Shown here: positions 31,919 through 37,241 of the stretch, piece by piece
Position numbering within the stretch: the first letter of the stretch is position 1
Layout: every line of letters begins with the position of its first letter
NCBI GenBank assembly: GCA_035609245.1
Contig: CP141202.1
Location: forward strand, 124,001 to 188,000
Direction of reading: 5' to 3'
Length of the DNA stretch: 64,000 nt
From: Bacteroidales bacterium MB20-C3-3
GTDB taxonomy: Bacteria; Bacteroidota; Bacteroidia; Bacteroidales; UBA932
Translations under genes and position numbers: made by a program
The notes under the pieces: generated by a model
Database searches by the model: none
What the model was told of the DNA's origin: nothing
Seen by the model: the letters and a program-made list of their open reading frames with translations, nothing else

Positions 31919-33444
31919 TTGATTATATTTTTTAGGGTTGCAAAATCAAAATTCTTTGCCACTATCCGTCCTTTTCTGTCCAGAAGAAGAGTGTAGGGGA
32001 CACTCTCTGTTTCATACAGCTGAAAGATTGAGCCGTTGTCGTTTTCTAAAGGAGAGAGTACATGCCATTTTATGTTTTCCAAAATTTTGTATTGGTTGGA
32101 GGAGGCAGGTGTCCCCATTGTATTAACTGCAATAATTTTTACCCCTTTTTTTCTGAGGTTTTTATACTCTCGCTTTAATATTTCTGTATATGTTTTACAT
32201 GTGGCGCAGTGTTGGTCTGTGAAATAAATGAGTGTAAATTTTGAGCATTTTTTGCCAAGTGTTATTCTCTTTCCTGATGTATTTAACATTGTATGTTCAG
32301 GAAAGAGGGAGCCAACCTGGTTCATTTTAGTCCGTTTTACCATTGATGGTACCCATATTGCCGGATACTCTTTATTAATCCAGAAATCAGGATAGGGAAT
32401 TATGAAATCCTCAGCAACAATAACAGAGGCCTCTCTCCGTTTCTCACTCTGAGAGTAGAGGAGCTCCTCATAAATATATGAAAATACACTACGGTAAAGC
32501 TCTTTGTCACTCGCTGAAGATAAATTTGAAAATAGTGATGAGATTGAAGTTTTCACAGATACTGAATCTTCAAAGTCTATTGCTTCAATATATGCAGCGG
32601 CAAATCTGGATGCCTGTTCACTGAATTCCTTATCATTTTCATACAACTTAGAAAGAAGCTCATCTAATGAAGATGAACTGAGATTTCTGCCTCTTATTTT
32701 CCCGGAGTTGTCTATAAGAAAAATCTGAGGTGTTTTAACAACATTATAAAGCCTGGGAAAATCTGTAGAGTAAGCCGGATCTGATACAAATGTCCAGTTT
32801 ATTATGTCATTAACAGGCAATCCTGCTATAAAATTTCTAAGTCTGGATGTATCGGGATGTGTAAAAACTGCAAAAACAGATAAACCCTCATAATCTGCGA
32901 ATTTTGAAATCTTTAGCAGCTCCGGAAGCTCTGTTTTGCAAATTGTGCACTGATCATCAAAAAACAGCAATACTGTATATTTGGAACCGAGACTCTCTTT
33001 TAAGGATTTGTGAATACCTGAGGGGGTTGTCATAACAAGATCAGGGGCATCCATCCCTATCAGTGAATGCTTGTTGAATTCAACGAATAGTAAAATCTCG
33101 GATTTATTTAAACCATCAGGAGGGGTAAGAGTGTCGCTAAGAAAATATTTCTGTGCTATATATACCGATACACTCTCAAGACCCATTATCCCGGAATCTT
33201 TGAAAATCATAAATAGTCTTCCGGCTATATATGAGGAAAGATTATTGCTTTCGCCAGCAGCTATCAGCCTGTCTGATGCGGCACTGAGAGAATCGGGATG
33301 AATCGGAATAGTGGACAGAAAGCTTGATATATGGCTGTCAACCTTTTGTCTTAAGGAATCGGCACCACTAATCTGCCTGGTTTGTGAAAAAAGACCAAGT
33401 GATATTGTAAGAAGTAAAAATAAGAGGGTTGCTTTAATGTTCAT
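31915..33444 (-). CDS. Exported protein with two thioredoxin/TlpA-like domains
   Basis: A 509-residue protein with a signal peptide (about 1-20), a helical N-terminal region (about 30-125) and two thioredoxin folds. The first has CTIC (C166/C169), with a cis-Pro-type VVKTPQIFLID. The second has CATC (C413/C416), with ESVPYTLLLD. Both are complete, so this is a tandem arrangement rather than one broken domain. It probably acts in thiol reduction or disulfide chemistry in the periplasm, perhaps in cytochrome or outer-membrane protein maturation. It overlaps coaD by 11 nt and the dehydrogenase gene by 4 nt. Confidence 0.85.
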   Translation of the reverse strand: MNIKATLLFLLLTISLGLFSQTRQISGADSLRQKVDSHISSFLSTIPIHPDSLSAASDRLIAAGESNNLSSYIAGRLFMIFKDSGIMGLESVSVYIAQKYFLSDTLTPPDGLNKSEILLFVEFNKHSLIGMDAPDLVMTTPSGIHKSLKESLGSKYTVLLFFDDQCTICKTELPELLKISKFADYEGLSVFAVFTHPDTSRLRNFIAGLPVNDIINWTFVSDPAYSTDFPRLYNVVKTPQIFLIDNSGKIRGRNLSSSSLDELLSKLYENDKEFSEQASRFAAAYIEAIDFEDSVSVKTSISSLFSNLSSASDKELYRSVFSYIYEELLYSQSEKRREASVIVAEDFIIPYPDFWINKEYPAIWVPSMVKRTKMNQVGSLFPEHTMLNTSGKRITLGKKCSKFTLIYFTDQHCATCKTYTEILKREYKNLRKKGVKIIAVNTMGTPASSNQYKILENIKWHVLSPLENDNGSIFQLYETESVPYTLLLDRKGRIVAKNFDFATLKNIIK

Positions 33445-33928
33445 TCTTCTCTTCTCTCCTTAATCTGCCGGTTAGATCCACTCCGGGAGCCAGGAATATC
33501 CGGGCATCTCCGCCATTTAAGAGAAGGTCTCTTACAACAGTAGAGGTAATAAATGAGCACTCGGCAGAGGATGGGATAAAAACGGTCTGAATATTTGGAG
33601 ATAATTTGTAGTTAGCTTGTGCAATAACCTGTTCAAAATCAAAGTCAGTGGTTGATCTGATTCCCCTTACAATAAAATCTGCTCCACAGGAGTTGCAAAA
33701 GTTTATAGTTAGTCCTGTGTAAGATTCTACCTCAACATTATTAAGATTTTTAACCGACTCTTTTATTATTTCTATTCTCTCTTCAATTGTAAAGAGTCCG
33801 CTTTTATTAATGTTGTATCCAACAGCAACAACAACTTTGTCAAATACTCTGAGAGATGACTGAAGGACATCAAGATGTCCTTTTGTGAAGGGGTCAAAAG
33901 ATCCCGGAAAAACAGCTTTTCTCATCAT
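33434..33928 (-). CDS. coaD: Phosphopantetheine adenylyltransferase
   Basis: Fourth step of coenzyme A synthesis: 4'-phosphopantetheine + ATP to dephospho-CoA. The nucleotidyltransferase signature FPGSFDPFTKGHLDV is at the N-terminus, with VRGIRSTTDFDFE and SAECSFITSTVVRDL further on. The length is about 164 aa, normal for bacteria. The ATG at 33928 (or the next one at 33925) is chosen over an in-frame GTG at 33937; it follows the dapF stop by 2 nt. Its 3' end overlaps the thioredoxin gene by 11 nt. Confidence 0.95.
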   Translation of the reverse strand: MMRKAVFPGSFDPFTKGHLDVLQSSLRVFDKVVVAVGYNINKSGLFTIEERIEIIKESVKNLNNVEVESYTGLTINFCNSCGADFIVRGIRSTTDFDFEQVIAQANYKLSPNIQTVFIPSSAECSFITSTVVRDLLLNGGDARIFLAPGVDLTGRLRREEKNEH

Positions 33929-33930
33929 AT

Positions 33931-34797
33931 TCAGCACTCAATTACGCAACTGAAAACATAAGTTGCAGGGCCGGTTAGTTTAATGTCTGTATAGTTATCC
34001 TCTCCAGTATATGTGAATTCTACAGTTAGCTCTCCTCCTTTGGTCTCAATAATATTCTTTACAGTTTGAGGGATCTTAATATCTACTTTACTGTATGAAA
34101 ACTTATTTCTGGTAAGCAGTTTATGATGAGCAATAGCCGATGCCGTTACTCCGGTTCCGCAGGAGAGGGTCTCGTCCTCAACACCTCTTTCGTATGTTCT
34201 TACTGATATTCTCTGCTCCTGCTCCTCATCAAATTTTGGTATATTGAATCTGCCCCAGCTTCCCTGAACAAAGTTAACATTAGTGCCTCCCGGAAAATGG
34301 GGGTGGTGTCTCCAAAGCTTCCCCTGCTCTCTTACATCATAATCACTTACATTCTCAACAAAAATCACCAAATGTGGTGATCCTGTATTTAACATATAGC
34401 TTTTTGGGGAGTAGTCCTTAACGCTTGTTACATCAGATATGCCAAGTTTAACTATGCAGGTTGAAGGTGAGTATTTAATAATTTCTGCCTCGTGAATACC
34501 ATCAACAGCCTCAAAAGTAAAATCTTTAATTCCCTTATGTGCTGCAAAAGCCACTAATGAGCGTCCTCCGTTTCCGCACATAGTCCCCTCTCTTCCGTCT
34601 GCGTTGTAATAGACCATTGAAAATGAGTATTTTTTACTTCTATTGAGCAACATCAATCCATCTGCTCCAACTCCAAATCTGCGGTCACAAAGATGTTTAA
34701 TCTGACTTTCGGTCAGTTCTAGCTGGCCCTCTCTGTTATCCAGGATAACAAAATCATTACCTGTTGCCTGGTATTTATATGCTGTTATTCTCATCAT
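33931..34797 (-). CDS. dapF: Diaminopimelate epimerase
   Basis: Converts LL- to meso-diaminopimelate for lysine and peptidoglycan, without cofactor. Both catalytic cysteines are in their motifs: MCGNGGRSL in the N-terminal half and LSCGTGVTAS in the C-terminal half. The N-terminus reads YKYQATGNDFVILDN. 288 residues is slightly long but normal for Bacteroidota. Two adjacent ATG codons (34797 and 34794) are possible starts; the first overlaps the stop of lpxB-ogt by 4 nt, indicating translational coupling. Confidence 0.96.
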   Translation of the reverse strand: MMRITAYKYQATGNDFVILDNREGQLELTESQIKHLCDRRFGVGADGLMLLNRSKKYSFSMVYYNADGREGTMCGNGGRSLVAFAAHKGIKDFTFEAVDGIHEAEIIKYSPSTCIVKLGISDVTSVKDYSPKSYMLNTGSPHLVIFVENVSDYDVREQGKLWRHHPHFPGGTNVNFVQGSWGRFNIPKFDEEQEQRISVRTYERGVEDETLSCGTGVTASAIAHHKLLTRNKFSYSKVDIKIPQTVKNIIETKGGELTVEFTYTGEDNYTDIKLTGPATYVFSCVIEC

Positions 34798-36434
34798 TTT
34801 TTCTCCTCTTCTTGAAAGAGGTTATTATCTGTTGTTAAATATGCTTTTTCCAATTCCAGTAAATAGCTCTTTTTATCTATTCCAATTGCAAAACCAGTAA
34901 GTTTATTATTTGCACCAACAACCCTGTGACAAGGGATTACAATTAAAAGGGGATTCATTTTACATGCTAATCCTACAGCTCTGCTGGCATCTCTGGATTC
35001 AACTATAGAGGCGATCTCTCCATATGTTTTTACCTCTCCGTATGGTATATTACTTAGCTCATGCCATACCCTTTTTTGGAATTCTGTCCCGTTTAATTTT
35101 ACAGGGAGTTCAAAATTCTCTCTTTTCTCCTGAAAGTATTCGTCAAGTTGTCTTGCTGTCTCAGACAATATGGGGTGAGAGCGATTTGTCTCCTCAGAGA
35201 GGTTTTGTTCATCTTCACCAACATATTCTACTCCGATTAGATTTGAATCGTCACAGATTAGCTTTAGCCTTCCCATAGGGGTTTCGTGAATAGCCGAGAA
35301 AAGATTGTCCTCTTTATGAGATTTTATCTCTTTTAGCATAGATTTAGCCACTTTTTCAGAGGCTCCCTCACCACCAAGTAATTTTCTTACTCTTTTATAT
35401 CCCGATAGAATCCTCTTTCTGTCTCTTCCAATAAGGATTTTTCCAATTTCTGCCGATATGTTTTCAGGAGTGCAATCCCATTGAAGGAGCTCCTTTACAA
35501 GCTCTTTGTCAAGAATTAAATTGACCAGGCTTGCGTATTTTACTTTGATAATTAATTTACCAAGCCATACAGTTACTGGATTCATTCCGTAACAAACAAC
35601 CTGAGGAGTGTCAATTATTGCGCACTCAAGGCTGGCAGTACCTGAAGATACTGCTGCTGCATCAGAGTGTTTAAGAATGGAGTATGTCTCTCCAAAAAAG
35701 AGTTTTATTCTGCTGCCACTAAGATATTGCTGGTAGTATGATGGCTCTATCGAGGGGGCTCCGGCAAGTAAAAACTGATATTCGGGGTAATCATCCTCCA
35801 GCCCTCTTAACTTGGGAAGAAGATATGAAATTTCGTGTTTTCTGCTCCCGGCCAGCAAAGCAATAGTGGGTTTATTATCAATATGAAGACGAGAGGTAAA
35901 TTCCTCTTTGGATTCTGAAAGTGCTTTGTCTGATATTATGCTGTCATATAATGGATTCCCAAAATATTTAACATCCATATTATGGCCTTTAAAGAACTCT
36001 TGTTCAAAGGGAAATATTATATATGTTTTATCAGTGTACCTTTTTAGTTTTTCAATTCTCGATTCCCCTCTGGCCCAGACTTTGGGCGGGATATAGTAAA
36101 ATACTCTAAAACCTCTCTCTTTTCCAAATTTTGCAATACGCAGGTTAAAACCGGGATAGTCAATTAAGATAATAACATCAGGCTTCCAGTCCAGAATATC
36201 TTTTTTACAATGTGAAAGATTTTCTCTTATTTTTCCAAGTTTTGAAAGAACTTCAACTATACCCATTACGGCAGTATCGCTATAGTGTTTAACAAGACCA
36301 TCATAAACAGATCTCATCAAATCACCGCCCCAGAATCTGAATTCAGCAGAAGGGTCTTCTTTAAGAAGACTTTTCATCAGATTGGAGCCGTGCAGGTCCC
36401 CGGACGCCTCCCCCGCAATGAGGTAATAACGCAT
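34794..36434 (-). CDS. lpxB: Fusion of lipid-A-disaccharide synthase (LpxB) and O6-methylguanine-DNA methyltransferase (Ogt)
   Basis: One uninterrupted 546-residue frame. Residues 1 to about 372 are LpxB, the GT19 enzyme joining UDP-diacylglucosamine and lipid X to form the lipid A disaccharide; GEASGDLHG, PGFNLRIAK, PPKVWARGE and ALLAGSRKHEI are present. Residues about 377-546 form a complete Ogt/MGMT: N-terminal subdomain, YGEVKTYGEIA helix, an Arg-finger SRAVGLACKMNP, the alkyl-acceptor PCHRVVG (C502) and LTGFAIGIDKK. The two activities, membrane lipid synthesis and direct DNA repair, have no known link. LpxB alone is normally about 380 aa. It lies 21 nt after surE and overlaps dapF by 4 nt. 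Confidence 0.9.
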   Translation of the reverse strand: MRYYLIAGEASGDLHGSNLMKSLLKEDPSAEFRFWGGDLMRSVYDGLVKHYSDTAVMGIVEVLSKLGKIRENLSHCKKDILDWKPDVIILIDYPGFNLRIAKFGKERGFRVFYYIPPKVWARGESRIEKLKRYTDKTYIIFPFEQEFFKGHNMDVKYFGNPLYDSIISDKALSESKEEFTSRLHIDNKPTIALLAGSRKHEISYLLPKLRGLEDDYPEYQFLLAGAPSIEPSYYQQYLSGSRIKLFFGETYSILKHSDAAAVSSGTASLECAIIDTPQVVCYGMNPVTVWLGKLIIKVKYASLVNLILDKELVKELLQWDCTPENISAEIGKILIGRDRKRILSGYKRVRKLLGGEGASEKVAKSMLKEIKSHKEDNLFSAIHETPMGRLKLICDDSNLIGVEYVGEDEQNLSEETNRSHPILSETARQLDEYFQEKRENFELPVKLNGTEFQKRVWHELSNIPYGEVKTYGEIASIVESRDASRAVGLACKMNPLLIVIPCHRVVGANNKLTGFAIGIDKKSYLLELEKAYLTTDNNLFQEEEKK

Positions 36435-36455: not shown

Positions 36456-37241
36456 TTACATTTCCCAGAGCCCGGATAATCTCTCCACCTCTGAGTAATC
36501 TGTTGTGTCAATTTTGTGAGGAACAATGCTAATGTATCCATCCTCAACCAAATTATGATCAGATTCCCTGTTATCAGGCTCCAGATTAAAAAACTCTCCA
36601 GTCATCCAGTAATAGTGGAACCCATAGGGATCTGTTCTCTCTTCAAACTCTTTTATCCACTGACCCTTTCCCTGATGACAGAATTTAATCCCCTTTATGG
36701 AGTTCAATGGTTTGTCCGGGAAATTTACATTTAAGAAAATCTCAGGTTTTGGAGGATTTTTCAAATATTGGTCAATTATAATTTTCCCGTAATGAATTGA
36801 AGCGGAGAAATCTGCATCTCTGTGATGAGATGAGAGAGAAAAGCCGACAGAGGGAATTCCGTAGACTGTCCCTTCAGCAGCGGCACCAAGTGTCCCTGAA
36901 TAGAGAGAGGCAACCGAAGCATTTGATCCATGGTTAATTCCTGAAACAAGAAGATGTGGAGGATTTGATGAAAAAAGCTGATTCATAGCCATTTTTACAC
37001 AATCTGCAGGCGTACCGCTGCATGCAAAAATCTTCAACCCCTCTTCTGACTTCAGCTCTGTAAGCCTTAAAGGTTTGCCTATAGTAAGTGCTGCTGACAT
37101 ACCTGACATTGCCTCAAATGGCGCTACGACTGTAATATCACCATATGGTCTCATCATATCAATAAGAGCAGAAATCCCTTTTGATTTTACTCCATCATCA
37201 TTAGTTATCAGTATATTAAGCTTTTCTCCTGTAGTCTCCAT
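36456..37241 (-). CDS. surE: 5'/3'-nucleotidase SurE
   Basis: A 261-residue metal-dependent nucleoside 5'-monophosphatase, a survival protein. The N-terminal LITNDDG (D15/D16) metal site, the SGMSAALT loop and SGINHGSN are the family signatures, and the dimerisation tail is present. It is the first gene of the long minus-strand train running down to the UbiD gene. A TAACTTTG box stands 34 nt upstream, back to back with the gap promoter. Confidence 0.95.
   Translation of the reverse strand: METTGEKLNILITNDDGVKSKGISALIDMMRPYGDITVVAPFEAMSGMSAALTIGKPLRLTELKSEEGLKIFACSGTPADCVKMAMNQLFSSNPPHLLVSGINHGSNASVASLYSGTLGAAAEGTVYGIPSVGFSLSSHHRDADFSASIHYGKIIIDQYLKNPPKPEIFLNVNFPDKPLNSIKGIKFCHQGKGQWIKEFEERTDPYGFHYYWMTGEFFNLEPDNRESDHNLVEDGYISIVPHKIDTTDYSEVERLSGLWEM

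Follow-up and report, generated by a model that had tools for sequence, protein, structure and literature searches.

The lipid A enzyme LpxB and the DNA repair protein Ogt are encoded as a single polypeptide in Bacteroidales bacterium MB20-C3-3, and this fusion is genuine, has both of its parts intact and is shared by a single branch of uncultured Bacteroidales, where it is conserved. The gene lies in the window, the whole 64,000-nt stretch of DNA that was analysed (CP141202.1, positions 124,001 to 188,000). A preliminary description of the window had reported one 546-residue frame carrying a full LpxB and a full Ogt, and this was borne out by Pfam and NCBIfam profiles and by full-length homologues in relatives. 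PF02684 (LpxB) matches residues 4-354 (E 3e-79, over the cut-off), PF02870 (Methyltransf_1N) residues 383-447 (E 1e-10, 42.1 bits against a cut-off of 21) and PF01035 (DNA_binding_1) residues 451-530 (E 2e-30, over the cut-off). The lpxB equivalog TIGR00215 scores 226 bits on the fusion against a cut-off of 190.25, and TIGR00589 (ogt) scores 105 bits against 46. Since PF02870 is present, the Ogt half is neither an ATL nor a bare C-terminal domain. Identity with the Ada regulator was rejected, as the domains of the fusion are LpxB, PF02870 and PF01035 only and the Ada equivalog NF011964, at 83 bits, stays below its cut-off of 345; an AGT-EndoV or AGT-2 type was likewise rejected, the Pfam partner here being LpxB rather than endonuclease V or a histone-like domain.

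The acceptor previously placed at C502 in PCHRVVG was confirmed. In the Ogt half C502, H503, R504, R485, Y471, N494 and E529, whose roles are those known for human AGT, are invariant among 22 aligned fusions, and PCHR is present in all 33 rows of a wider fusion alignment. Residues E15, S17, D98, S200, R201, T277, E281 and N316 of E. coli LpxB, which have catalytic or UDP-site roles (PMC5785501), align with E9, S11, D92, S197, R198, T266, E270 and N305 of the fusion, and all eight are invariant in the same 22 sequences. The hydrophobic membrane patch of E. coli LpxB, with positions taken from PMC5785501 and mapped by alignment to PDB chains, is hydrophobic at five of six positions in the fusion (V60, V62, L63, L66 and I69); R70 differs.

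Coordinates of the fusion, its parts, its operon neighbours and the UbiD-linked Ogt fusions of a related genus. Positions are those of the window unless a locus is named.
Feature	Residues	Position	Strand	Remarks
lpxB-ogt fusion gene		34794..36434	(-)	546 aa, ATG start; TGA stop at 34794-34796
LpxB half, lipid-A-disaccharide synthase	1-376	35307..36434	(-)	profile matches, PDB alignment
Ogt half, O6-alkylguanine-DNA alkyltransferase, N-terminal and DNA-binding domains	377-546	34797..35306	(-)	
Acceptor Cys502 codon, PCHR motif	502	34929..34931	(-)	invariant in 22 aligned fusions
Leu539-Phe540 of C-terminal tail	539-540	34815..34820	(-)	invariant in 22 aligned fusions
Junction	367-382	35289..35336	(-)	AlphaFold model
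Met366 codon, candidate internal start (SMLKEI Met)	366	35337..35339	(-)	not peculiar to fusions
surE, upstream, same operon		36456..37241	(-)	profile matches and gene order; ends 21 nt before fusion
dapF, downstream		33931..34797	(-)	start overlaps fusion stop (ATGA)
coaD, next operon gene after dapF		33434..33937	(-)	
UbiD-Ogt fusion		L142:1392-3722	(-)	genus g14
UbiD-Ogt fusion		L141:763-3039	(+)	genus g14

The LpxB plus MGMT architecture, which the preliminary description had proposed to look for across Bacteroidota genomes, was found in the same genus, in its sister (g13) and in a further, more distantly related genus of the family (g46). A homology search recovered the full-length fusion, at 53-99% identity and free of internal stops, from 22 of 25 same-genus genomes. 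Two of the exceptions (G003 and G014) are incomplete genomes in which no LpxB was detected at all, and the third is G005, described below. An apparent TAA inside the fusion of one genome (G023) proved to sit after the tail LF and to be the true end of the frame. Genus g13 is represented by one genome, where the fusion is split across two contig ends as pieces corresponding to residues 221-544 and 1-257. Genus g46 carries the fusion full-length in 10 genomes (about 40-43% identity) and cut by a contig end in two. The LpxB halves of this genus (L032, L048-L055) lack approximately 13 residues after position 38 and keep the catalytic residues; they also have a DLYA-type sequence, as against DLHG, near position 14 and form a long branch. 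The remaining genera of the family have an LpxB of ordinary size. Outside the family, a profile built from 22 fusions found no fusion among the matches listed for 393 genomes of the order, and none in 395 genomes of the phylum at a strict E-value that could hide a very divergent one. Two separate genes at this position, or a missed stop near the junction, had both been raised in the preliminary description; the former was not seen in the same-genus relatives, and as to the latter the frame is open in the homologues.

Both halves are, to judge from their substitution ratios, under purifying selection. In close pairs dN/dS was about 0.03-0.12 for the LpxB half and about 0.017-0.09 for the Ogt half; the 16-residue junction, which offers few sites, was looser at up to 0.4. 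These low ratios, together with the invariant catalytic residues, agree with the earlier impression that neither half is decayed. They also stand against decaying read-through with one dead half, just as the recurrence of the same frame in many separate assemblies of different species stands against a sequencing or assembly artefact; no point supporting either was found, and both can practically be dismissed.

The fused genomes that were searched contain one LpxB each. Of the 22 fused genomes of the genus, 21 have a single PF01035 gene, as do all 12 matching g46 genomes; the one exception, G011, also encodes a second Ogt that stands alone (L101 / L097, G011:C234). With a single LpxB and a single Ogt, each species would rely on the fusion for lipid A and, barring another repair route, for the direct reversal of O6-alkylguanine. 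Since lpxK was found in 12 of 13 g46 genomes, lipid A is probably made in that genus as well.

In the window, on the minus strand, surE, lpxB-ogt, dapF and coaD follow one another in a tight operon. Unfused relatives (genera g5, g12, g7 and others) have the order surE-lpxB-dapF with no ogt between, whereas in the fused genera g1 and g13 lpxB.ogt is followed directly by dapF and coaD, which shows that an ogt went in exactly at the boundary of lpxB and dapF and was joined to lpxB in frame. The reverse step appears in G005, which is nested within the fused clade in both the LpxB and the RpoB tree. Its lpxB stands alone (L100:4314-5466), 10 nt before dapF and with no ogt relic, and its Ogt is encoded elsewhere (G005:C19) and belongs to a different branch of the Ogt tree. 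On gene order and tree position, G005 has secondarily and cleanly lost the Ogt half while retaining Ogt function, indicating that the two halves are separable and that Ogt is still kept when they part.

The LpxB, Ogt and RpoB trees all place g46 apart from g1 and g13. A common clade of the fused groups was rejected for RpoB (p-AU 0.019, with g13 absent from the tested group) and was not rejected for LpxB (p-AU 0.26) or Ogt (p-AU 0.34), and the Ogt halves of g46 resemble those of g1/g13 no more closely than either set resembles stand-alone Ogts. The fusion may thus have arisen twice, once in g46 and once in g1/g13. With g46 branching off basally, a single early gain followed by losses is also a possible fit.

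In the AlphaFold model the last LpxB helix (358-376) abuts the first Ogt strand (379-385) with hardly any linker. The pLDDT exceeds 90 over most of the helix and falls to about 55-60 for the Ogt strand; the Ogt half, with a coverage of only three aligned rows, is for that reason poorly modelled, and no interface was read from the model. Unfused LpxBs mostly end 6-11 residues past the Met366 column. The preliminary description had proposed that an internal start at the Met of SMLKEI frees the Ogt, and a release of this kind, whether by a start at or near Met366 or by proteolysis at the junction, would leave the repair protein untethered. An ATG does occupy position 366 in 24 of 25 fused coding sequences, and translation beginning at it would yield an Ogt some 181 residues long. 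However, Met is ordinary for LpxB at this column, being found in 14 of 25 unfused proteins, and the remaining fused homologue (L052) has ATA, so that an internal start does not appear to be needed. No special start site was seen at Met366, although starts in Bacteroidota are hard to recognise, and the short junction, where the LpxB helix runs nearly straight into the Ogt strand, would expose little linker to a protease. Release of free Ogt by either route is therefore considered unlikely.

We consider it probable, from the conservation and gene order described above, that the fusion is one bifunctional chain of two independently working domains, an arrangement for co-expression and not a new pathway. 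The N-terminal half would be the cell's only LpxB, joining UDP-diacylglucosamine and lipid X at the inner membrane, and the C-terminal half, in nearly all these genomes the only O6-alkylguanine-DNA alkyltransferase, would act a single time per molecule, taking the alkyl group onto Cys502. Each activity would be independent of the other, and only expression would be shared: with ogt placed between lpxB and dapF of an old operon and read through in frame, the repair protein would be supplied constitutively along with an essential enzyme. Both domains would then be active in the intact chain, free Ogt would not be needed, and co-expression would be the benefit. The fusion presumably dimerises through LpxB, a membrane-associated dimer with swapped C-termini (PMC5785501), and would thus carry two Ogt domains. 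Among the three options offered by the preliminary description, it is the functionally accidental one, with no joint pathway, that fits best. Two points weigh against the co-expression reading. LpxB is membrane-associated (PMC5785501), an unexpected location for a repair protein whose task is to search the chromosome, and if the fusion is neutral, its persistence over roughly 45% within-genus protein divergence, together with a possible double origin, is somewhat surprising.

Long conservation, possibly from two origins, is what might be expected if the fusion coupled both jobs, with Ogt gaining from a tether to the inner membrane, or with alkylation of Cys502 destabilising the chain and lowering lipid A synthesis so that LpxB output reports DNA alkylation. 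UbiD, the other Ogt-tailed enzyme in the family (see below), belongs to a family that handles lipid-like substrates. Some AGTs are reported to be destabilised by alkylation (PMC10779285). Against such coupling, G005 dropped the Ogt half and kept LpxB, which indicates that LpxB manages without it, and the sequence gives no sign of an interface between the halves. To our knowledge there is no regulatory or pathway link between LpxB and Ogt, and no paper describing one was found. Coupling in this broad sense is regarded as quite unlikely. Its most specific form, in which alkylation of the Ogt half alters LpxB stability or activity, or the tether confines repair to the membrane, lipid A output thereby being tuned to alkylation damage, and the arrangement was selected independently in two genera, would be very improbable.

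The co-expression reading gains by analogy from a second fusion in the family, which suggests that an unrelated enzyme can carry Ogt at its C-terminus with the Ogt functioning, or at least being tolerated, there. In genus g14, a complete Ogt forms the C-terminus of a UbiD-family decarboxylase of about 760 residues. This UbiD-Ogt was found in four of nine g14 genomes (G036, G109, G095 and G078), others of the genus having a homologous UbiD match that lacks the Ogt portion, and in the Ogt tree the UbiD-linked Ogt groups with a stand-alone Ogt. In 159 genomes surveyed across the order, just two of the listed matches were Ogt frames of more than 400 residues: that of the window and one of 452 aa in G456, which was rejected as a further fusion since its sequence reads by eye as AraC/Ada-type. 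Ogt fusions of such kinds are rare in general and recurrent in this family.

The Ogt tail ends in a conserved ..LF, which is also seen in L081, L082, L088, L094, L095 and PDB 4wxc; M. tuberculosis OGT ends in DLTLF. In sequence this ending resembles a sliding-clamp-binding tail and may point to such a role; a literature search for the Ogt ..LF tail or for binding of AGT to the clamp found no paper.

No description of an LpxB-Ogt fusion was found in the literature searched, and the architecture, which joins an essential lipid A enzyme to the sole O6-alkylguanine repair protein in more than thirty species, is apparently undescribed. It is a test of the extent to which unrelated enzymes can be joined without functional linkage, and it advises caution in transferring function from fusions, since a 'Rosetta stone' argument would link lipid A to DNA repair in error. 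Provided that the fused Ogt is active, the protein would be a natural SNAP-tag-like LpxB, a lipid A enzyme that should take up benzylguanine labels directly.

Each half has a close counterpart among characterised proteins. E. coli LpxB (PDB 5w8n; PF02684, TIGR00215) belongs to the same family, and its listed catalytic and UDP-contacting residues are all present in the fusion; at 382 aa it ends about where the Ogt half of the fusion starts. M. tuberculosis OGT (PDB 4wxc/4bhc; PF02870 and PF01035) likewise has both domains, the PCHR acceptor motif and the C-terminal ..LF tail. Ogt/AGT is usually a separate protein of about 165-190 aa, whereas here it is the C-terminal part of an LpxB chain. Natural AGT fusions are known in Ada, the archaeal AGT-EndoV and the histone-like AGT-2 of C. 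elegans (PMC10779285), in which, as here, the alkyltransferase is joined to another domain. In those proteins the partner has a DNA-directed, DNA-binding or response-regulating role, in contrast to LpxB, which is a membrane glycolipid enzyme. The UbiD-Ogt of g14 is more similar in kind, as it too carries a complete Ogt at the C-terminus of an unrelated metabolic enzyme and is conserved in several species; it differs in that the partner is a UbiD-family decarboxylase and its Ogt groups with a stand-alone Ogt rather than with the LpxB-linked Ogts.
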